Source: Hydrogenophilales bacterium (GTDB taxonomy: Bacteria > Pseudomonadota > Gammaproteobacteria > Burkholderiales > Thiobacillaceae). From it: a stretch of 64,000 bases of DNA. The position numbers were made by a program, and so were the translations under genes. This document shows, piece after piece, positions 15,173 to 38,002 of this stretch (positions are counted from its first letter, which is position 1; the number at the start of each line of letters is the position of its first letter). The notes under the pieces are model-generated. The model searched no databases and was not told where the DNA came from. It saw only the letters and a program-made list of their open reading frames with translations. Where the stretch lies: contig JAHFRD010000004.1 in assembly GCA_023258975.1 (NCBI GenBank), forward strand, positions 124,001-188,000, written 5' to 3'.

Positions 15173-15943
15173 ATGCCTCTGATTGAAGTCCACGACCTCG
15201 CCCGTGATTACCGGGTCGGTGAAGTCAGCGTGCCGGCGCTGCGCGGGGTTTCGCTGTCCATCGAGCGGGGCGAATTCGTCGCGGTGATGGGGCCGTCCGG
15301 GTCCGGCAAATCGACTTTCATGAATCTGCTGGGGTGCCTCGATGTGCCGAGCGCCGGGCGCTACGCGCTGGCCGGCGAGGCGGTGAGCGGGCTGGGGCCG
15401 GATCGCCTGGCCGGCATCCGCAACCGTTACCTGGGTTTCGTGTTCCAGAACTTCAATCTGCTGCCGCGCGCGACCGCCCAGGAAAACGTGGAACTGCCCT
15501 TGCTCTACGCCAATGTCCCGGCGGCGGAGCGGCATCGCCGCGCCCGCGAGAAGCTGGCGAAGGTGGGCCTGGCCGAACGCGCCCACCACCGGCCCGCGCA
15601 GCTTTCCGGCGGCCAGCAACAGCGCGTGGCCATCGCCCGCGCCCTGGTCAACGAGCCGCCGCTGATCCTGGCCGACGAACCCACCGGCGCGCTGGACACC
15701 CACACCAGCCGGGAATTGATGACCCTGTTCCAGGAACTCAACGCGACCGGGATTACCGTGGTGCTGGTGACGCACGAGCCGGACATCGCGGCGTATGCGA
15801 AGCGCCTGCTGGTGTTTCGCGATGGCTTGCTGATCGAGGACAAGGCCGGAGGGGGCGAACCTGTAGCGCCGGCGTCCTCGCCGGCGGGGGTAAAAGACGC
15901 CGGCGCTACAGTCAGCTTCCCCGAGCGGCTTGAACTGACATGA
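15173..15943 (+). CDS. MacB/LolD-like ABC transporter ATPase
   Basis: Energises the neighbouring MacB-like permease. The 256 residues contain Walker A GPSGSGKS, the Q-loop [11 protein letters not shown], signature [15 protein letters not shown], and Walker B with catalytic Glu in [12 protein letters not shown]. It is longer than usual (about 230). The extra C-terminal residues [20 protein letters not shown] are encoded by a palindromic repeat (family B, 15862-15910) inserted in frame just before the stop. The stop overlaps the permease start (ATGA). Confidence 0.93.
15862..15910. repeat. Palindromic repeat family B, copy 1 (inside ATPase gene)
   Basis: A perfect 15-base inverted repeat, TGTAGCGCCGGCGTC at 15862-15876 and its complement at 15896-15910, encloses a secondary CCTCGCCGGCGG palindrome. 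It lies wholly inside the C-terminal coding sequence of the ATPase and keeps the frame. Confidence 0.85.
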
Positions 15944-23379: not shown

Positions 23380-26300
23380 ATGATCAAGAACCCCATTTCC
23401 AAACTCCTCGGCCAGATGCATCTGATGGAGCCGGGCCGCAGTGGCCAACCCGCCGCCAAGGCGGCCGCCGGGAACGTGAAGTATCCCGGCGTGCGCGACG
23501 CCATCGACGGCAACACCGCCGTCATCCTGGTCGAACGCGAAGCTTCCGACGCCGCCGGCGCCTACCCCATCACGCCGTCCACGCAGATGGGCGAATACTG
23601 GGCCGAGGCCGCCGCCGCCGGGCATGTGAACATCTCCGGCCGGCCGCTGATCTTCCTGGAGCCGGAATCCGAACACGCGGCCGCCGGCGTCACCGCCGGC
23701 ATGGCCATGACCGGTCTGCGCGCGGTGAATTTCACCTCCGCCCAGGGCCTCGCCTTCATGCACGAATCGCTCTACGGCGCGGTCGGCAAGCGTCTGCCCT
23801 ATGTGCTCAACCTGGGCTGCCGCGCCATCACCAAGGCCACGCTCAATGTGCATTGCGGCCATGACGACTACCACTGCGCCGACGATACCGGCTTCATCCA
23901 GGTGTTCGCCAAGAGCGCGCAGGAAGCCGCCGACCTCAACCTGATCGCGCGCAAGACCGCCGAACTGTCGCTGACCCCGGCGATGGCGGCGATGGATGGC
24001 TTTCTCACCACCCACCTGATCGAGCCGGTGCTGGTGCCGGAAAAGGAACTGGTGGCCGAGTTCCTCGGGCGTCCGGACGACCTCATCGACACCCCGACCC
24101 CGGCGCAGGAAATGATCTACGGGCCGAAGCGCCGCCGTGTGCCGGCGATCTGGGACGTGGACTCGCCGATGGTGTCCGGCGCGGTCGCCAACCAGGACGC
24201 GCACATGCAGGCCACCGCCGCGCAACGTCCCTACTTTTTCGAGCATATCCCGGCGATCCTGGATCAGTGCATGGCGGAGTATGGCGAGCTGACCGGGCGC
24301 CATTACAGCCGCGTGGACGCCTACCGCTGCGACGACGCCGAATACGTCATTCTCGGCATGGGTTCCATGTGTGTGCAGGCGGAAGCCGTGGCCGACTGGC
24401 TGCGCGACACCCGCAAGCTGAAAGTGGGCGTGGTCAACCTGACCACCTTCCGCCCCTTCCCCGGCGACCTGCTGGGCACGATTCTCAAGGGCAAGAAAGG
24501 CGTGGCCGTGCTGGAGCGCACCGACCAGCCACTATCCGAAGACCTGCCGCTGATGCGCGAGGTGCGCGCGACCATGAGCAAGTGCATGGAGAATGGCGTC
24601 GAAGCCGATACCTATCCCGGCTATGCCGCCTACGCTTCCACCAAGGACATGCCGCGCCTCTATTCCGGCTGCTATGGCCTCGGCTCGCGCGACCTGCAAC
24701 CGGAAGGCCTGGTCGCGGCAATCGAGAACATGCTGGATGGGGTTGGCAAAAGAGGCGCGCACAAGAAGTTCTTCTATCTTTCCATCGATTTCATCCGCGA
24801 CAAGGCGGCCAATCCCAAGCAGGAAATCCATCAGCAGGAACTCCTCGCCGCCTATCCCAAAATCAAGGAACTCGCGCTGCGCGGTTCGGAAAATCCCAAC
24901 CTGCTGCCGAAGGCCGCCATCGCCGTGCGCATGCACTCGGTCGGCGGCTGGGGCGCGGTGACCACCGGCAAGAACCTGGCGATGACCTTGTACGAACTGC
25001 TCGGCTGGGACATCAAGGCCAACCCGAAATACGGCTCCGAGAAAAAGGGCCAGCCCACCACCTACTTCCTTTCCGCCGCGCCGGAGCCGATTCGCGTCAA
25101 CTGCGAATACACCCATGTCGACGTGGTGCTCTCGCCCGACCCGCAGGTGTTCCTGCACACCAACGCGGTGGCCGGCCTGAAGAAAAACGGCGTGCTCATC
25201 ATCCAGAGCAATCTGCCGGATGCCGCCGCCGTCTGGGCCACCTTCCCGATCCACGCGCAGAAGACCATCGCCGGCAACGACATCAAGGTGTTCTATCTGG
25301 ACGCCTTCAGCATCGCCCGCGAGGAATCCTCCAACCCCGATCTGCAATTGCGCATGCAGGGCAACGCCTTCCAGGGCGCCTTCTTCCACGCCTCCGACGT
25401 CAAGGAGCGCGCCGGCCTGACCGAGGAAATCCTGTTCAAGGCCATCGAGAACCAGCTCAACGACAAGTTCGGCAAGAAGGGCAAACGCATTGTCGATGAC
25501 AACCTGCGCGTGGTGAAGCGCGGCTACACGGAAATCCACGAGATTCCCGCCGAGGTGAAAAAGGTCGGCGTGCGCGAGCCCGCCGGCTTCAAGGCCACGC
25601 CGTCGCTGCCCATCATGTTGAAGCGCATGCCGGAAAACGACGGCGCCCTGGCCAAGACCGCCGATACCCATCGCTTCTGGGAGCAGACCGGCAATTTCTA
25701 CATGTCCGGCAAGGGCTCCGACAACCTCGCCGACCCGTTCATGGGCATGGCCCTGATTCCCGCCGTCACCGGCGTCTATCGCGACATGACCCAGATCCGC
25801 TTCGAGCACCCGGTGTGGATCGCGGAAAACTGCACGGCCTGCGGCAACTGCTACACGCAATGCCCGGACTCCGCCATTCCCGGCCTGGTCTCCACTGTCG
25901 GCGACGTGCTCAACACCGCAGTCGGCAATATCGAGATGAGCGGCCGCATCACCCGCTTCCTGCGCAAGGGCTCCCGCGTCATCGAGAAGAAACTGCGCGG
26001 CGTGCTGGAAAAAGACGGGCTCGACGTGCGCGCCCTGCTCAAGCGGGCCATCGAGGAGGCCATGCACGAAGACGCCAACCAGGGCAACGCGGCGATGGAG
26101 GAGGAATATCACCTCCTGGAAAAAGAGATCGGCGAATTCCAGTTCGCCACCACCAAGCCGTACTGGACCAACAAGGAGAAGAAAGGCAAAGGCGGTGGCG
26201 GCCTCTTCTCCATTACCGTCAACCCCTACACCTGCAAGGGCTGCGCCCTGTGCGTGGAAGTTTGCGAGGACGACGCCCTGAAGATGGTCACCCAGACCGA

Positions 26301-28386
26301 CGACAGCATCGTGCAATTGCGCCGCGAATGGGATTTCTGGCTCGACCTGCCGACCACGCCCCAGGAATACAACCGCATCGACGATCTCGACGAGAAGATC
26401 GGTGCCCTGGAAACCCTGCTCCTGGACAAAAAGAACTACAGCAGCATGGCCTGTGGCGACGGCGCCTGCCTGGGTTGCGGCGAGAAGACCGCCATCCACA
26501 TCTTCACCGGCACGGTCACCGCGCTGATGCAACCGCGCGTGGCCGCCTTCGTGGCAAAGCTGGACGGCCTCATCGACGGCCTGGAAAAGCATCTGCGCAT
26601 GAAGCTCACCGAATCGGTGAACCTGTCCGACACCAGCGCCGTGATGGCCGCCGTCGCCGCGTGTGAAGCCAACCGAATGGGCGGCGACCTGACCCTGGCC
26701 AACCTGTCGCAAAGCCTGATGGCCGGCCACGCCGCGCAGCCCATCGACCCGCAATGGCTGAAATGGGTGACGCAGTTGCTGGCGCGCCTGAAAGACCTGA
26801 AGTGGCGTTACGTGGAAGGCCCGAGCAAGCGCGGCCGCGCCGAGATGGGCATCGTCAACTCCACCGGCTGCACCTCGGTGTGGGGCTCCACCTTTCCGTT
26901 CAACCCCTACCCCTTCCCCTGGACCTCGCACCTGTTCCAGGATTCCCCCTCGGTGGCGATGGGCCTGTTCGAGGGCCACATGAGCAAGATGGCGGACGGC
27001 TTCAAGGCCGTGCGCATGGCGGAACTGGAACTGGGTTTGTGTGGCAACTCCGGCGGCTACAACCCGGCCGCGCATGACGCCGAGTTCACCTACTTCAACT
27101 GGGAGAAATTCTCCGAGGAAGAGTGGCACCTGTGCCCGCCCGTGGTGGCGGTCGGCGGCGACGGCGCCATGTACGACATCGGCTTCCAGAACCTGTCGCG
27201 CGCCCTGATGACCGGCATGCCGGTGAAGATTCTCGTGGTCGATACCCAGGTGTATTCCAACACCGGCGGCCAGGCCTGCACCTCCGGCTTCATCGGCCAG
27301 GTGGCCGACATGTCGCCCTACGGCAAGAAGGATCACGGCAAGAAGGAAATCCGCAAGGAAATCAGCGTCATCGGCATGGCGCACCGTTCCGCCTTCGTCG
27401 CCCAGAGCGCCATCTCCAGCCCCACCCACCTGATCGAAAGCTACATCGACGGCCTCAATTCCCGGCGTCCGGCGCTGTTCAACATCTACGCGGTGTGCCC
27501 GCCGGAACATGGCGTCGGCGACGACACCTCGGTGGAACGCTCGAAGCTGGCGGTGGAATCGCGCGCCTACCCCCTGTTCCGCTACGACCCCGACCAGGGA
27601 ACCACTTTCAGCGAGTGCGTCAGCCTGGAGGGCAACCCGGAGATGGAGGCCGAGTGGCCCACCTATACCCTGGCCTACAAGGAGGAGGACGGCGGCGAGA
27701 AGAAGATGGAACTGCCGATGACCTTTGCCGACTTCGCCCTGGGCGAGGGCCGCTTCGCCAAGCAGTTCCGCAAGGCGCCGCCGGACACCTGGAACGATGA
27801 CATGGTGTTGCTGGCCGACTTCCTGAAATTCGATGCCGATGCGCGTGACGGCAAGTTCCCCTACATCTGGGCGGTGGACAAGAAGCAGCGCCTGATGCGC
27901 GTGCTGGTGTCGGCGGAACTGGTGAACTCCTGCGAGGAACGCCAGCAGTTCTGGCAACAGTTGAAGGATGTGGCCGGCCTGAACACCCCCGCCGTGGATG
28001 AGGAAGCCATCGCCAGCCGGGCGCGCGCCGAACTGCTGGGCGAAATCAGCGCCAGCCTGGCGAACTTCGGCACGGGTGTTGTAGCGCAGGCGTCCTCGCC
28101 TGCCACCGTTCATGCAAGCGAGACGCCCGCGCTACAGGGGGATGCGGTCTATGTCGATACGCCAGAGTGCACCGCCTGCGACGAATGCACCACCATCGCG
28201 CCGAAGACCTTCGCCTACAACGGTGACAAGAAAGTCATCGTCATCAACCCGCAAGGCACGAAGTTCGCCGATCTGGTCAAGGCCGCCGAGAAATGCACCG
28301 CCGGCTGCCTGCACCCCGGCACGCCCTGGAACCTGGGCGAGCCGAATATCGACAAGCTGATCGCCCGGGCGGCGAAGTACAACTGA
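23380..28386 (+). CDS. nifJ: Long pyruvate:ferredoxin (flavodoxin) oxidoreductase with C-terminal ferredoxin
   Basis: Interconverts pyruvate + CoA and acetyl-CoA + CO2 with low-potential electrons. The 1668 residues exceed the usual 1170-1200. Order: TPP/pyruvate domain (AYPITPSTQMGEYW); CoA and gamma domains (VGGWGAVTTGKNLA); two ferredoxin clusters (CTACGNCYTQCP near 818, CKGCALCVEVC near 951). Next come the CLGCGEKT cluster near 1030 and the TPP site VGGDGAMYDIGFQNLS with NTGG near 1260. Last is an extra single-cluster ferredoxin, CTACDEC near 1597. The linker before it (about 1568-1586) is encoded by palindromic repeat B2. Start MIKNPISK follows a GAGAGG ribosome site; MSSERHYP eight codons earlier is possible. 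Confidence 0.93.
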   Translation: MIKNPISKLLGQMHLMEPGRSGQPAAKAAAGNVKYPGVRDAIDGNTAVILVEREASDAAGAYPITPSTQMGEYWAEAAAAGHVNISGRPLIFLEPESEHAAAGVTAGMAMTGLRAVNFTSAQGLAFMHESLYGAVGKRLPYVLNLGCRAITKATLNVHCGHDDYHCADDTGFIQVFAKSAQEAADLNLIARKTAELSLTPAMAAMDGFLTTHLIEPVLVPEKELVAEFLGRPDDLIDTPTPAQEMIYGPKRRRVPAIWDVDSPMVSGAVANQDAHMQATAAQRPYFFEHIPAILDQCMAEYGELTGRHYSRVDAYRCDDAEYVILGMGSMCVQAEAVADWLRDTRKLKVGVVNLTTFRPFPGDLLGTILKGKKGVAVLERTDQPLSEDLPLMREVRATMSKCMENGVEADTYPGYAAYASTKDMPRLYSGCYGLGSRDLQPEGLVAAIENMLDGVGKRGAHKKFFYLSIDFIRDKAANPKQEIHQQELLAAYPKIKELALRGSENPNLLPKAAIAVRMHSVGGWGAVTTGKNLAMTLYELLGWDIKANPKYGSEKKGQPTTYFLSAAPEPIRVNCEYTHVDVVLSPDPQVFLHTNAVAGLKKNGVLIIQSNLPDAAAVWATFPIHAQKTIAGNDIKVFYLDAFSIAREESSNPDLQLRMQGNAFQGAFFHASDVKERAGLTEEILFKAIENQLNDKFGKKGKRIVDDNLRVVKRGYTEIHEIPAEVKKVGVREPAGFKATPSLPIMLKRMPENDGALAKTADTHRFWEQTGNFYMSGKGSDNLADPFMGMALIPAVTGVYRDMTQIRFEHPVWIAENCTACGNCYTQCPDSAIPGLVSTVGDVLNTAVGNIEMSGRITRFLRKGSRVIEKKLRGVLEKDGLDVRALLKRAIEEAMHEDANQGNAAMEEEYHLLEKEIGEFQFATTKPYWTNKEKKGKGGGGLFSITVNPYTCKGCALCVEVCEDDALKMVTQTDDSIVQLRREWDFWLDLPTTPQEYNRIDDLDEKIGALETLLLDKKNYSSMACGDGACLGCGEKTAIHIFTGTVTALMQPRVAAFVAKLDGLIDGLEKHLRMKLTESVNLSDTSAVMAAVAACEANRMGGDLTLANLSQSLMAGHAAQPIDPQWLKWVTQLLARLKDLKWRYVEGPSKRGRAEMGIVNSTGCTSVWGSTFPFNPYPFPWTSHLFQDSPSVAMGLFEGHMSKMADGFKAVRMAELELGLCGNSGGYNPAAHDAEFTYFNWEKFSEEEWHLCPPVVAVGGDGAMYDIGFQNLSRALMTGMPVKILVVDTQVYSNTGGQACTSGFIGQVADMSPYGKKDHGKKEIRKEISVIGMAHRSAFVAQSAISSPTHLIESYIDGLNSRRPALFNIYAVCPPEHGVGDDTSVERSKLAVESRAYPLFRYDPDQGTTFSECVSLEGNPEMEAEWPTYTLAYKEEDGGEKKMELPMTFADFALGEGRFAKQFRKAPPDTWNDDMVLLADFLKFDADARDGKFPYIWAVDKKQRLMRVLVSAELVNSCEERQQFWQQLKDVAGLNTPAVDEEAIASRARAELLGEISASLANFGTGVVAQASSPATVHASETPALQGDAVYVDTPECTACDECTTIAPKTFAYNGDKKVIVINPQGTKFADLVKAAEKCTAGCLHPGTPWNLGEPNIDKLIARAAKYN
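28080..28136. repeat. Palindromic repeat family B, copy 2 (inside nifJ)
   Basis: TGTAGCGCAGGCGTC at 28080-28094 is answered by GACGCCCGCGCTACA at 28122-28136, with the inner palindrome AGGCG...CGCCT. The repeat is translated in frame as VVAQASSPATVHASETPAL between the TPP domain and the C-terminal ferredoxin domain. Confidence 0.8.
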
Positions 28387-28400
28387 GACCGGAGATGATT

Positions 28401-28460
28401 CGTGGGAGCGGGCTTGCCCGCGATGTTGCCGCCGCAATCGCGGGCAAGCCCGCTCCCACG
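28401..28460. repeat. Palindromic repeat family A, copy 2 (before rnfC)
   Basis: A perfect 23-base inverted repeat: arms 28401-28423 and 28438-28460, 14-base loop. The core is GTGGGAGCGGGCTTGCCCGC. It ends only 11 bases before the rnfC ATG, so its hairpin abuts the translation start, where no Shine-Dalgarno sequence is visible. Confidence 0.92.
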
Positions 28461-33802: not shown

Positions 33803-35077
33803 TCACCGCGTATCGGCTCGCCAACGCGGTTGCGGGTCGCGCAGGATCAGCTCCGGCGCTGAAAACGGGGCCAGTCTTTCGAGAAAATCGAGCAGTTCCA
33901 GGGCCGGCGAATTGCGGAAGAAACGCGCCTGGGGGGTCTCCATCCAGATGCGGTCGGCGTAGTAATAGAGCGCATACGGGGTATCGCCGATGCCGTCGCC
34001 GTCGCGGTCGAAGCCTTCGTAATCGTCCCATTCATTGCCGCGCCAGTCGTTGCCGCGCGCGCTGGTGGAGGCGGATACGCCGACCTGCATGAGGTTTTTC
34101 TCGAAGCGATTGCCCCGCACGACATGCCCCCCCTTCTCGCCGTAGAAGTACATGCCGGTGACGTTGTGGGCGAAGCGGTTGCCCTGGAAGCGGTGGCGCG
34201 CCTCGGGGTAGGGCGGGGCGTCGGCCTGGACGCCCACCGTGCAATGCAGGACGGTGTTGCCCGTGACTTCGGCCTGGCCGCTGCCCTTGAAGGCGAGCCC
34301 GGCTCCGGCGACGTCGCGCACGTGTTCGATGCGGTTGCCGTGCAGCGTCACCTGGTCGGAATACAGCACGGCGATGCCGGTGGTGGTGTGGCTGACCAGA
34401 TTGCCTTCGATGTGGTTGCGCGGCGAGAAGATGAGTTGCATGCCGTAGCGCCCGTTGACGATGCGGTTGCCGGTGAAGCGGTTGTCGGTCGAGTTGGCGA
34501 CAGTGATATCGCGGCTGTCGCTGACGCGGTTGTTCTCGATCCGGTTGAAATGGCTGTTCCACAGGCGGATGCCGTCGCCGCGCAGGTTGAGCTCCGCCTC
34601 GCGGCCGCGAATCGTGTTGCCGCGTACCAGGGAGTGGCTGGATTGCTTGAGGTGGATGCCGAACAGCACCTGGTCGATGACGTTGCCTTCCACCCGCGCG
34701 CCATCCACCTCGTCGATCATCAGGCCGGCATCGACGCCGTCGTGGGTGGCGCCGGAATTGGTCAGGCGCATGCCGCGCACCGTGACGTCGGCGGCGCGCA
34801 CGCTCAGTACGGTGCCGTGGCCGCCGCCGTCCAGGGTGACGCGGCCGCCGCCATCCAGGATCAGGGGTTTGCCGATGACGGCCGGGCCGGCGTAGCGCCC
34901 GGCGGGCGGGCGCAGCGCGGCGCCGGCGGGGGTGGCGTCGATCAGGGGTTGCAGCGGGGGGAGGGCGGCCTGGGCGGAGACGGCCAGGAAAAACAGCGCG
35001 GTGGCCAGGGTGCACCGGCATTCGCTCGCTTGTTCGGCAAAGACGCCGGCGGGGACGCCGGCGCTACAGGAGGTCAT
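33803..35077 (-). CDS. nosD: NosD-like copper-site maturation protein, second copy
   Basis: Periplasmic right-handed beta-helix protein of 424 residues that, with NosF/NosY, supplies the CuZ site of N2O reductase. Repeated turns (GNTIRGREAELNLRGDGIRL, NRVSDSRDI) and the C-terminal DDYEGFDRDGDGIGDTPYAL plus RLAPFSAPELILRDPQPRW match the first NosD at 39779. The signal peptide core is TLATALFFLAVSAQA, but it is preceded by residues SCSAGVPAGVF encoded by a family B repeat. ATG overlaps the stop of the thioredoxin-like gene (ATGA). It is the last gene of the nos cluster and converges on the rnf operon. Confidence 0.9.
   Translation of the reverse strand: MTSCSAGVPAGVFAEQASECRCTLATALFFLAVSAQAALPPLQPLIDATPAGAALRPPAGRYAGPAVIGKPLILDGGGRVTLDGGGHGTVLSVRAADVTVRGMRLTNSGATHDGVDAGLMIDEVDGARVEGNVIDQVLFGIHLKQSSHSLVRGNTIRGREAELNLRGDGIRLWNSHFNRIENNRVSDSRDITVANSTDNRFTGNRIVNGRYGMQLIFSPRNHIEGNLVSHTTTGIAVLYSDQVTLHGNRIEHVRDVAGAGLAFKGSGQAEVTGNTVLHCTVGVQADAPPYPEARHRFQGNRFAHNVTGMYFYGEKGGHVVRGNRFEKNLMQVGVSASTSARGNDWRGNEWDDYEGFDRDGDGIGDTPYALYYYADRIWMETPQARFFRNSPALELLDFLERLAPFSAPELILRDPQPRWRADTR
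35014..35069. repeat. Palindromic repeat family B, copy 3 (5' end of second nosD)
   Basis: Read on the minus strand it starts TGTAGCGCCGGCGTCCCCGC and continues GCCGGCGTC, then an AAGCGAG word shared with copy 2. The closing arm is lost. It is translated as residues 4 to about 22 of the second NosD. Confidence 0.6.
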
Positions 35078-35640
35078 TTTTTCAGCAGCGGCGCCAGTGC
35101 CTGGTTCAGGTCTTTTTCCGCGATCAGGCCGCGCTTGGCGTAGACCACGCGGCCTTCGCCATTGACCACCACGGTGTATGGCATGCCCGCCTGGGTGTTG
35201 CCCAGCGCCTGCATCAGGGCAATGGCCGGTTCGCGCCCGGCGGCGACGGGGTAGCGCAGGCCGTAGGCGCCGGCGTATTCGCCGACGAATTCGGCGTTGT
35301 CTTCCACGGCCAGGCCGAGGAAGGCGATCTTGTCGCCATATTTCTTCTTGTAGCGGCTGTGCAGCCTGGCCAGCAGCGGTAATTCCTCGCGGCAGGGCGG
35401 GCACCAGGTGGCCCAGAAGTTGATGACCGCCGGGCGCCCCTTGAGCACCTCGGTTTTCAGGCTGCCGCCGCCTGGTTGCGCAAAGCTGGCGTTGGAAACG
35501 GCATGGAAGTTGACGGGCTCCTGAGCGAATACGGCCGAAGCCAGTAGGAGCGGGCTTGCCCGCGATAGCAACCGCGCTACCGGCAACCACCCTATCGCGG
35601 GCAAGCCCGCTCCCACAAGTCGCCAGATGTTCAAGTTCAT
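35074..35640 (-). CDS. TlpA-like thioredoxin-fold protein of the nos cluster
   Basis: A 188-residue periplasmic thiol-disulfide protein with the active site WATWCPPCREE, likely keeping copper-site cysteines of NosZ or NosL reduced or acting in copper transfer. Fold landmarks: AVINFWATWC, IAFLGLAVEDN, GMPYTVVVNGEGRVVYAKRG. Most of its signal peptide (roughly residues 8-32, VGAGLPAIGWLPVARLLSRA) is encoded by palindromic repeat A3; the expected cut is after AVFA. The start overlaps nosY by ATGA and the stop overlaps the second nosD, so it is firmly inside the operon. Confidence 0.9.
   Translation of the reverse strand: MNLNIWRLVGAGLPAIGWLPVARLLSRASPLLLASAVFAQEPVNFHAVSNASFAQPGGGSLKTEVLKGRPAVINFWATWCPPCREELPLLARLHSRYKKKYGDKIAFLGLAVEDNAEFVGEYAGAYGLRYPVAAGREPAIALMQALGNTQAGMPYTVVVNGEGRVVYAKRGLIAEKDLNQALAPLLKK
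35544..35616. repeat. Palindromic repeat family A, copy 3 (inside tlpA-like signal peptide)
   Basis: Arms of 25 bases (35544-35568 and 35592-35616) with one mismatch and a 23-base loop; core GAGCGGGCTTGCCCGCGATA. The whole element is coding sequence for the signal peptide of the thioredoxin-like protein. Confidence 0.92.
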
Positions 35641-36488
35641 AGCAGGTCTCCACGCCGGAACAGGCGATACCCTCCGACCGCGCAAAGGGTGCCGATCAGG
35701 GTCGGCCAGGCCAGGGCGAAGATCTTGTACCCGAGGGCGCCGAACAGGTCGAAGATCACATAGGCCGCCGGCCCCAGGACGATGAGTTGCGGGTCGAACA
35801 GCATCAGGGCGGCGGTGCGGAAGGATTGCAGCGGGTTGAACAGGGCGATGGCGACGGCCACCTCGGCGGGCGCGTGTTCCTGGATCATCACCCCGAGCAG
35901 GATCAGGTCGAGGAACAGCAGCAGCACCAGCCAGGTGAGGAAGGCCGCGCCCTGCGCCACGTCGGTGGAACGCGCCAGGGTGGAGATCAGCATGGCGATG
36001 CCGAGGAAGCACCAGGTCATGGCGGCGAGCAGGGCGGTGTAATAGCCGAACATGCCCCAGGGCACCGGGATGTTGCGCAGCAGCGCCCATAACGTGGCGC
36101 CCAGCATGGCCAGGAACACCGGCGCGAACACCATCAGGTAGCGGCCCAGGAACTTGCCCCAGAACCAGGCCCCCAGCGACACCGGCAGGGCCAGCAGGTA
36201 TTCGAACACGCCCGCCTCGCGGTCGCCGGCCACCGAACGCACCGTGGTGATGAGCACGAAGATGGGCAGGATGGCCATCGCCAACTGGATGTAGGTCACC
36301 AGCAGGCGCGACAGGCCGATGAAGCCCAGCACGCGCGATTCGGTCAGTCCGAAGACGAAGAGCAGGGCGACGATGCCGCCGAACACCAGGGAATGAACGG
36401 CGAACCAGCGCGCGCGCAGCGAGGTGTTCATCTCCAGGCGCAGGGTGGGCCAGAAATCGTTCGTTTTTGCCATCGCGTTCGCCATCAT
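35637..36488 (-). CDS. nosY: NosY, ABC-2 permease for N2O reductase maturation
   Basis: Membrane partner of NosF; the pair moves a still-debated sulfur or copper-related species for CuZ assembly. 283 residues with about six helices: VHSLVFGGIVALLFVFGL, YIQLAMAILPIFVLI, FAPVFLAMLGATLWAL and others. VAGDREAGVFEYLLALPVS is the ABC-2 signature loop. The start codon overlaps the nosL stop and its stop overlaps the next start, both as ATGA. Confidence 0.93.
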   Translation of the reverse strand: MMANAMAKTNDFWPTLRLEMNTSLRARWFAVHSLVFGGIVALLFVFGLTESRVLGFIGLSRLLVTYIQLAMAILPIFVLITTVRSVAGDREAGVFEYLLALPVSLGAWFWGKFLGRYLMVFAPVFLAMLGATLWALLRNIPVPWGMFGYYTALLAAMTWCFLGIAMLISTLARSTDVAQGAAFLTWLVLLLFLDLILLGVMIQEHAPAEVAVAIALFNPLQSFRTAALMLFDPQLIVLGPAAYVIFDLFGALGYKIFALAWPTLIGTLCAVGGYRLFRRGDLL

Positions 36489-37042
36489 TTGCCTCTGGCC
36501 AGAATGTCCGCCTTCATGACGGCGAACCCGACGCTGCCCGCCTCGGCTTGCGCCAGGGCGCCGAAGCCGTAGGCCATGGGCGAGGTTTTTCCGGGCAGGT
36601 ACTGTGCCTTGCGGGCATCCAGCCATTCGCCGGTGCGGAAATCGTTGACCCAGACCTCGGTCTCCGGCGCTTCGGCCCAGGGCTGATCCTTGAGCCAGAA
36701 CAGGGCGCAGCCGATGTCGTCGAACTTGAACACCTCGTGCTTCGGCCCGCCACGCACCTGGGCGGCGTAGTGGCGGTCGCTCACCGACATGCCGCAACGC
36801 TTGCAGCTGTCGCGATCCCAGTGCACCTCACCGGGGCCGTGGCCGCTGTCGCGCGAGCAGGCAGGGAGGAAGGGGAGGGCGGCAAGGGCGAACAGACGCA
36901 GCCGGCCGCGCTGAACCCGTAGCGCCGGCGTCCCGCCGGCATCGCCCGCCAAAGGCGGGCCTTCGGCCCGCTTGCCGGCGGGGCCCTGAAGGATACCGTC
37001 CCTACGGGACATAACGCCGGCGCTACGAGGGACGTTGCTCAT
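36485..37042 (-). CDS. nosL: NosL, copper chaperone lipoprotein
   Basis: Outer-membrane lipoprotein that binds Cu(I) for NosZ. A 185-residue product with lipobox FLPAC and the metal motif DSCKRCGMSVSDRHYAAQ, then KFDDIGCALFWL. Its N-terminus is abnormal. Between the ATG (37042, ATGA overlap with nosF) and the hydrophobic core LRLFALAALPFLPAC lie about 40 residues (SAGVMSRRDGILQGPAGKRA and on) encoded by a family B palindrome. A start at the later ATG (MSRRDG) would not avoid it. The lengthened n-region may still work because the h-region and lipobox are intact. Confidence 0.9.
   Translation of the reverse strand: MSNVPRSAGVMSRRDGILQGPAGKRAEGPPLAGDAGGTPALRVQRGRLRLFALAALPFLPACSRDSGHGPGEVHWDRDSCKRCGMSVSDRHYAAQVRGGPKHEVFKFDDIGCALFWLKDQPWAEAPETEVWVNDFRTGEWLDARKAQYLPGKTSPMAYGFGALAQAEAGSVGFAVMKADILARGK
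36918..37027. repeat. Palindromic repeat family B, copy 4 (inside nosL)
   Basis: Outer arms CGTAGCGCCGGCGT at 36918-36931 and its complement ending at 37027 enclose nested palindromes: GCCCGCCAAAGGCGGGC at 36945-36961, GGCCTTCGGCC, and TCCCTACGGGA. It is the largest copy of the family and is entirely coding (N-terminus of NosL). Confidence 0.85.
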
Positions 37043-37893
37043 GCCTGTTCCTCCATTTCGATGTGGGTGAGTACCCCGACGTAACGCGCCAGCATGCCCA
37101 GGAAGCGCAGCCGGTCCGGGCCGGCGATGGCGCCTTGCCAGACGAGCTGGTCGGCGTCGCCGCTCAAGCCCCATTCGCCCAGGGTCTTGGCGATGGCGGA
37201 TTCGGCGCGGCGCAGGATCAGGCGGCAGCGCACCTTCCCGGCCAGGGCGACGTCATCGGCCACCCGGTCGTCGAGGACGATGCGTCCCATGTCCAGCTCC
37301 AGCACCCGGTTGACCAGGGGCGCCACCTCGTCGAGGCGGTGGCTGGAAATCAGCATGGTGGCGCGGCCCAGGCGTTCGGCGAGGAGGCCGAAGAAGGCGT
37401 GGCGCGCTTCCGGGTCGAGGTTGGCGGCGGGTTCGTCGAGGATCAGCAGTTCGCAGTCGCGGCCGAGGGCGACGGCGATGAGGATCTTCTGCTTCATGCC
37501 GCCGGAGAGTTTGACGAAGGGAAGGTGCCGCACCTTCGCCACGTCCAGGCCCAGTTGCGCGGCGACGGTGTCGAAGCGGCCGGCGTCGCAGCCGGAGAGT
37601 TCGCCGGCGAAGCGCAGCAGGTCGCCCACGCTCATGCGCAGCGGCGGCGGCAGTTGCGGCACGAAGCCGATGCGGCGCAACAGATCGGCGCGCGCCTGGC
37701 GCGGGTTCAGGCCGAGCACGGAAAGCTCGCCGGCATGCACGTATTCGCCCAGCAGGCAGCGAATCAGGGTGGTCTTGCCGGCGCCGTTGGAGCCGATCAG
37801 GGCGATGCGCTCACCGGCGGCGACGCTGAGATTCAGGTCGTCGAGGACGACGCTCTTCTTGAATTGCTTGGTGACGTGGCGAAGTTCGATCAT
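37039..37893 (-). CDS. nosF: NosF, ABC transporter ATPase
   Basis: ATPase of the NosFY transporter, 284 residues. Walker A GSNGAGKTT, signature LSGGMKQKILIAVAL, Walker B LLILDEPAANLD and the switch His in LISSHRLDE are all intact. The 133-base gap from nosH is the only sizeable one in this half of the cluster and holds repeat A4. The stop overlaps nosL (ATGA). Confidence 0.94.
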   Translation of the reverse strand: MIELRHVTKQFKKSVVLDDLNLSVAAGERIALIGSNGAGKTTLIRCLLGEYVHAGELSVLGLNPRQARADLLRRIGFVPQLPPPLRMSVGDLLRFAGELSGCDAGRFDTVAAQLGLDVAKVRHLPFVKLSGGMKQKILIAVALGRDCELLILDEPAANLDPEARHAFFGLLAERLGRATMLISSHRLDEVAPLVNRVLELDMGRIVLDDRVADDVALAGKVRCRLILRRAESAIAKTLGEWGLSGDADQLVWQGAIAGPDRLRFLGMLARYVGVLTHIEMEEQA

Positions 37894-37945: not shown

Positions 37946-38002
37946 CCGTGGGAGCGGGCTTGCCCGCGAATAGCGTTATCGCGGGCGAGCCCGCTCCCAC
38001 GG
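37946..38002. repeat. Palindromic repeat family A, copy 4 (between nosH and nosF)
   Basis: Arms 37946-37969 and 37979-38002 (24 bases, one mismatch) with a 9-base loop; core GGGAGCGGGCTTGCCCGCGA. It is intergenic and could stabilise or attenuate the nosH transcript end before nosF. Confidence 0.9.

Follow-up and report, generated by a model that had tools for sequence, protein, structure and literature searches.

The nos operon contained in a 64,000-nucleotide stretch of a Hydrogenophilales genome (assembly GCA_023258975.1, contig JAHFRD010000004.1, positions 124,001 to 188,000 of the forward strand; hereafter the window) carries palindromic repeats inside the early codons of three of its genes, namely nosL, a tlpA-like gene and a second nosD (nosD2). 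These palindromes are non-autonomous GTAG-type repetitive extragenic palindromic (REP) elements or inverted REP doublets (REPINs) and, judged from orthologous sites that are either filled or empty, they are insertions. It is likely that elements of this kind, presumably mobilised by REP-associated tyrosine transposases (RAYTs), have landed repeatedly and been tolerated in the signal-peptide n-region, the only room that a gapless operon leaves for them. The evidence suggests a recurrent tolerated landing spot and not a conserved regulatory device.

An earlier note on this DNA had pointed out that nosL, the tlpA-like gene and nosD2 each begin at an ATGA overlap, that each holds a palindromic repeat within its early codons, that the three products are exported, with the inserts in or before the signal sequences, and that nosY, between nosL and the tlpA-like gene, has no such repeat at its start, all of which was borne out (Table 1). 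The overlaps, on the minus strand, join the nosF stop to the nosL start at 37042, the nosY stop to the tlpA start at 35640 and the tlpA stop to the nosD2 start at 35077, and a hydrophobic segment together with a lipobox or an A-x-A-like site was recognised by eye downstream of each insert. The doublet form is found in tlpA (A3) and in nosL (B4), the latter consisting of two inverted family-B halves, one of them interrupted, that flank a spacer and show 5 mismatches to the family-B pattern; nosD2 holds a single REP (B3). As regards gene assignment, the nosD2 product scored 346.7 bits against TIGR04247 (cut-off 300), and NosL was barely above the PF05573 cut-off (24.3 versus 24 bits), with no NCBIfam match.

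The NosD2 of this operon is present in five of 23 same-genus genomes, that is, the window's own (G000), G017, G018, G011 and G006, the last four being represented by loci L065, L066, L067 and L068, respectively, as assigned from matching hit positions. The operon is also found in a Gallionellaceae metagenome-assembled genome (L069) and in G028 (L104), of the same family and another genus. In nosL, the site is filled by a B-type element in the window, L065 and L068 and by an A-type one in L067 (four of seven operons); in tlpA, by family A in the window and by family C, a third GTAG-REPIN family, in L065 (half an element), L067 and L068 (four of six readable); and in nosD2, by a B-type element in the window, L065 and L068, L067 being empty (three of seven). 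Seven of the 11 filled sites match one of the three family patterns with no more than 3 substitutions, and nosL of the window and of L068 and nosD2 of L065 and of L068 were classed as B-type by eye; the nosL start of L068, which begins inside the gene, and the masked tlpA start of L069 were unreadable. The N-termini of nosL, tlpA and nosD2 are all REP-free in L066 and L104, as are those of nosL and nosD2 in L069, which is masked over nosY and tlpA. No match to families A, B or C (up to 3 substitutions) was obtained anywhere in the fetched loci L066, L069 (partly masked) and L104, and the empty sites of L066 can be illustrated by nosL (MTSKPQRDRLRLLAAL...LPAC) and by the GTGA-coupled tlpA (VKHWLLIGLLAASGAMA). 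Altogether, 11 of 20 sites in nosL, tlpA and nosD2 are filled, compared with none of 13 starts in nosF (6) and nosY (7): the nosY start is REP-free in all seven operons read, and in each of the five relatives having nosF, the tblastn match covers NosF from residue 1 onwards, so that an N-terminal insert is absent. Wherever a junction was read by eye, its ATGA or GTGA overlap proved to be retained, with the exception of nosD2 in L104 (ATGC). Besides its B-type REP, nosD2 of L068 has some 195 nt more than that of L065 before the end of the signal peptide, partly repeat-like and coding for PPFSKGGWGGF.

The occurrence of orthologous sites both filled and empty implies that these copies were inserted in the past. 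The expectation that relatives would lack the inserts and keep the junctions held for the same-genus G018 and for the two outgroups wherever readable, with overlaps mostly kept, and failed for G017, G006 and G011, which are filled too, by other copies or families. That the N-terminal residues are old and merely repeat-like is hardly credible: the B-type residues are indeed common to the window, L065 and L068 in both nosL and nosD2, but the N-termini of L066, L069 and L104 are REP-free wherever readable, the families differ at orthologous sites and hundreds of copies lie elsewhere in the genomes. An ancestral origin was consequently rejected on the basis of the other-genus orthologues without REP, distant genera sharing the same residues being the outcome that the earlier note had named as refuting insertion. 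Its reading of the repeats as mobile palindromes finds support in the empty sites of the relatives, the kept overlaps and the presence of RAYTs.

The palindromes belong to abundant families. Family A (GTRGGAGCGGGC-NN-GCCCGCGA) gave 176 matches in the window's own genome and family B (GTAGCGCCGGC...) 106, both at up to 3 mismatches, versus 5 and 1 for the respective reversed-pattern controls, an excess which shows that the window palindromes are not due to chance. Both families have the GTAG/GTGG head typical of GTAG-type REPs and frequently form inverted pairs; likewise, the nos inserts start with GTAG or GTGG and the doublets end in CTAC; in the tlpA element of L065, the 5' half is degraded. 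The elements are mostly extragenic, 216 of 303 sampled being intergenic (105 of 157 in the own genome and 111 of 146 in the relatives) in sequence that is 87-89% coding. This count relied on our own gene caller, which overlooked the tlpA start, and covered 613 kb around REPs plus the window in the own genome and 491 kb in G006, G011, G017 and G018; the sample comprised the first 100 of the 176 listed family-A matches and 100 of the 106 of family B, and was likewise drawn from the listed matches in the relatives.

Moreover, the putative movers are at hand. The own genome has four RAYT-like genes, three of which scored 154.5, 92.6 and 86.9 bits against NF047646 (cut-off 80) and the fourth 78.9, and family-A REPs adjoin the strongest of them (locus L001). 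NF047646 was above its cut-off in five of the six genomes examined, the exception being G028. In G006, G011 and G017 the RAYT matches reach about 194-208 bits, compared with at best 155 in G000 and 88 in G018, and we infer that the high-scoring genes of the former three are linked to family C. Matches to this family number 135, 760 and 551 in G017, G006 and G011, compared with 0 in G000 and 5 in G018 (controls 0), and family C is found in tlpA only in those three C-rich genomes, G000, without C, having A there. At up to 2 mismatches, family A gave 175 matches in G000, 86 in G017, 47 in G006, 10 in G018 (control 2), 375 in G011 and 0 in G028, and family B 82 in G017 (control 1), 112 in G006, 60 in G018 and 191 in G011; A and B are least numerous in G018, which also has few C and in which all three sites are empty.

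The differing families also allow the insertions to be counted. On the tree of the concatenated operon proteins, (window,(((L065,L068)90,L067)70,L066)52)85, seven insertions fit without losses. If the window may join L065 and L068, at least five separate events remain, because pattern-confirmed families differ at nosL (B, A) and at tlpA (A, C), to which nosD2 (B) is added. As for the earlier statement that three repeats so placed are unlikely by chance, it stands in that all three lie in start regions, a position repeated in the relatives, and falls in that three REPs within 3 kb are also held by five other places in the sampled own genome. Clustering alone is therefore not unusual, and REP clustering as a nos-specific feature was rejected. 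The nos locus truly holds four REPs, since the patterns miss the interrupted nosL element.

Table 1. Genes and repeat elements of the nos operon, and other repeats of the window, in window coordinates.
Feature	Position	Strand	Basis
nosF ATPase	37039..37893	-	domain search
nosL, 185-aa lipoprotein-like product with the lipobox Cys at position 62	36485..37042	-	PF05573
B4, family-B REPIN-like insert, nosL codons 6-42, GTAG...CTAC, 108 nt, in frame	36919..37026	-	B type by eye
nosY-like ABC-2 permease	35637..36488	-	PF12679
TlpA/Redoxin-like exported thioredoxin-fold protein	35074..35640	-	PF08534
A3, complete family-A REPIN of two inverted REPs, tlpA-like codons 9-33, GTGG...CTAC, 73 nt	35544..35616	-	pattern match
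nosD2, second NosD, exported beta-helix protein	33803..35077	-	TIGR04247, PF05048
B3, single unpaired family-B palindrome, nosD2 codons 4-12, 24 nt	35044..35067	-	pattern match
A4, family-A REPIN, ordinary extragenic copy in the gap upstream of nosF	37948..38000		pattern match
Family-A REPIN, intergenic, elsewhere in the window	28402..28459		pattern match
Family-B REP close to the 3' end of a called gene	15863..15886	+	pattern match

The inserts are probably translated, as short N-terminal extensions, because eight of the ten readable filled sites lack any in-frame ATG, GTG or TTG between the insert and the end of the signal peptide. Alternatively, the starts might be mis-called, with the REPs forming an untranslated leader and initiation occurring downstream, a reading put forward by Di Nocera et al. 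(2013) for many REPs at N-termini. This proposal has been published for other species (PMC3733652, in its available portion), and a good downstream ATG after the REP was found in two of 28 N-terminal candidates of our census (see below). Nevertheless, this explanation is very unlikely in view of the scarcity of alternative starts just described; furthermore, the empty orthologues begin at the same ATGA or GTGA, nosD2 of L104 excepted. Start codons do occur within the insert at several sites, such as the ATG at codon 11 of the window nosL, but initiation there would still translate part of the REP. In the window tlpA, the native hydrophobic stretch of L065 (WLLLVGLLAVSG) is missing and, by eye, REP-encoded residues ending in SPLL, followed by LASAVFA, stand in its place, so that part of the hydrophobic core of the TlpA-like signal peptide is apparently provided by the A3 REPIN.

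The earlier note had also offered the possibility that the palindromes are selected RNA hairpins, a strong stem-loop after the coupled start setting the ratio of NosL, the TlpA-like protein and NosD2 to their upstream partners. Folding was predicted over positions -30 to +130 and accessibility of the start codon over -15 to +3. The REPIN-filled nosL and tlpA starts are predicted to fold more strongly, with -75 to -91 kcal/mol in six of seven (-54.6 for the half-element of L065 tlpA) versus -39 to -63 at five empty ones, and the repeated filling of the same three sites in related species could also be taken in favour of selection. On the other side, the three single-REP nosD2 starts (-55 to -74) fold no more strongly than four empty ones (-65 to -95), predicted accessibility is not lowered at filled sites, L066, L069 and L104 lack the element at every readable site, and family and size vary by species. 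The conservation of structure among orthologues by which a regulatory RNA would be recognised is not seen, relatives having no element or one of another family. The fold predictions do not favour tuning, and selected hairpins, left without positive support, are an unlikely explanation.

Repeated insertion followed by tolerance would account for these results as follows. RAYT (TnpAREP) transposases presumably move REPs and REPINs as single-stranded DNA, inserting them widely, and some copies would have landed just 3' of the start codons of the three overlapping genes. Most insertions into a gapless coupled operon would break a gene; because the operon has no intergenic space there, an insert lying between the stop of one gene and the functional core of the next would survive only in the n-region of a signal peptide, or in a replaceable h-region. 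The n-region is under weak constraint of sequence and length and would be cleaved off after export, leaving coupling and mature protein intact, and such inserts would be close to neutral. Those which are in frame and keep the ATGA overlap would persist and be inherited, other families occupying the same slack in other species. A more daring proposal, which we hold tentatively and at less than even confidence, is that the n-regions of overlapping operons are recurrent safe harbours for RAYT-mobilised REPINs, selfish palindromes which rewrite the leaders of exported proteins, a REPIN being now part of the working signal peptide of the window TlpA-like protein.

Several points weigh against repeated, tolerated insertion into signal peptides. 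Weak in-frame GTG or TTG codons remain downstream of the insert in nosL of L067 and nosD2 of L068. The contrast between 11 of 20 and 0 of 13 starts (Fisher p = 0.0009) ignores shared descent, the sites not being phylogenetically independent, and with 5-7 events spread over five starts, chance alone would spare nosF and nosY with a probability of about 0.08-0.03. Any event count above five is uncertain, because the placement of L066 is poorly supported (52). Nor does family load alone predict the filling of a site: all three families are abundant in G011, where nosD2 is nevertheless empty. As to the target, TnpAREP cleaves at a CT adjoining the REP (PMC8266576, in the part available), and CT precedes GTAG in 29 of 91 family-B elements of the own genome and 10 of 42 of the relatives (about 5% expected), compared with 1 of 82 and 0 of 10 for family A and 3 of 151 for family C. 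Since the preceding base differs between families, a single target rule is not established, and one CT rule for all of them is unsupported.

Finally, genome-wide enrichment of N-terminal REPs in exported proteins is weak or absent. A loose rule gave 28 candidates, reduced to 19 by removing 5 RAYT genes, 2 cases with a downstream ATG and Shine-Dalgarno (SD) sequence and 2 nos genes; the interrupted nosL element was never among the 28, and the tlpA row started at a GTG inside the REP. With a crude leader predictor, which over-calls, 9 of 19 were positive versus a base of 229 of 858 (26.7%; p = 0.043), a figure tilted towards enrichment because the candidates had two readings (whole protein or the part after the REP) and the base only one. 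With one reading, the positives fell to 8 of 19 for the whole protein (p = 0.11) and to 7 of 19 for the part beyond the REP (p = 0.22), and there were 6 of 19 (p = 0.40) once three that look false by eye had been dropped. The exported types recognised by eye include a TPM-like exported protein and two prepilin-like leaders in G000, an ApbE-like lipoprotein and an exported protein in G017 and a lipoprotein in G006; other proteins with N-terminal inserts include a CopA-like ATPase, a glycosyltransferase and a GspE-like ATPase in G000, which look cytosolic or membrane-bound, and an HpcH-like protein in G017. The suggestion that mobile palindromes are tolerated only in signal peptides was rejected on account of these latter cases; from them and from the leader census, signal peptides are a frequent, non-exclusive harbour, with enrichment unproven.

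Other intragenic REPs occur in these genomes. Two type IV pilin-like proteins of G000 (C9:94584 and C35:97416) have B-type REPs in the prepilin leader, before a G|FTL cleavage-like site. An exported protein near position 1501 of L255 (MPALQECLVAVVFFFSAASAHA...) seems to have its called start at an ATG lying within a B-type REP, so that the element may supply the start codon. In a very large open reading frame (ORF) of the window, 23380-28383, a REP variant at 28081-28104 (GTAGCGCAGGC...) codes for a linker ahead of an iron-sulphur-like segment (PECTACDECTTIAPK), and a REP-like linker is found at the matching place in G017 (L320:2853). An A-type remnant encodes the internal EGNRGQARSY of a valyl-tRNA synthetase-like protein (by eye) in two species (G000 C5:276524 and L317:5007), and this sharing indicates that intragenic REPs can be inherited. 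In a cobalamin-like operon of G000 (C37:28164-30155; names by eye), REPs lie inside or at the starts of adjacent genes, with an internal REPIN in a histidine-phosphatase-like ORF.

In addition, a gene for a family-4 uracil-DNA glycosylase contains a RAYT transposase, in frame, in its N-terminal linker, with REP-encoded linker peptides on both sides (L002:787-2115, minus strand, in the own genome; L328-L332, L334 and L335 in relatives). This single open frame is present in 8 of the 23 same-genus genomes and is cut by contig ends in two more (G006 and G009); twelve have the glycosylase alone, and one, 58% complete, gave no match. Judged by the open frame, the two may form one protein, a candidate fusion. 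No published account of it was found among the matches listed, and long TnpAY1 fusions were discarded from one survey (PMC6006769, in its available part).

The nos operon can thus serve as a clean natural experiment that shows in which parts of genes small mobile DNA is able to survive. With three sites in empty and filled states, several families and REP loads measured in five related genomes, insertion pressure and tolerance can be told apart from selected function more clearly than by listing intragenic REPs. It also serves as a warning, as seemingly conserved N-terminal residues, for example CSAGVPAG, VGAGLPA and GTLRFAQPT, are repeat-derived. Moreover, the contribution of mobile elements to signal peptides becomes directly testable.

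It has been known since 2013 that REPs occur inside ORFs, N-termini included. As far as the available portions of the sources go, Di Nocera et al. (2013, PMC3733652) described GTAG-tagged, RAYT-linked REPs within ORFs, more commonly at the NH2 than at the C terminus, with Thauera among the examples of REPs lying wholly inside ORFs, and suspected many N-terminal ones of being extragenic and untranslated. No paper dealing with REPs inside nos genes, or with the repeated insertion of REPs into signal peptides, was found among the matches listed, although the ORF list of PMC3733652 may include nos genes; the words intragenic, N-terminal and signal peptide are absent from RepRanger (PMC12306157). 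The present contribution is the orthologous comparison of empty and filled sites, in which the same three signal-peptide positions hold differing families, together with the scarcity of alternative starts.

In this context, and within the same parts of the sources, the nos inserts resemble the REPs of PMC3733652 in being GTAG-headed palindromes inside ORFs at the N terminus, and differ from them in that few alternative starts exist, a single operon is affected in three of its genes, orthologous empty sites are present and one site can hold different families. With the REPINs and RAYT/TnpAREP of Bertels and Rainey (2011, PMC3116915) they share inverted REP doublets, high copy number, the GTAG motif and RAYT genes; those REPINs are described as mostly extragenic, whereas the nos inserts are apparently translated inside signal peptides. 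The Rickettsia palindromic elements (RPEs; PMC3733652, PMC2229807) are likewise palindromic selfish DNA in frame within protein genes, but constitute other families, set apart by their description, RPE-4 and RPE-6 being of the CGTC type without a dedicated transposase (PMC3733652). Closest in outcome to the nos inserts, as a mobile palindrome contributing to a signal peptide, is the Yersinia palindromic miniature inverted-repeat transposable element, which forms part of the signal peptide of YPO1552 (reviewed in PMC2229807); YPO1552 is a putative exported protein, whereas the nos cases concern known maturation factors with empty-site orthologues.

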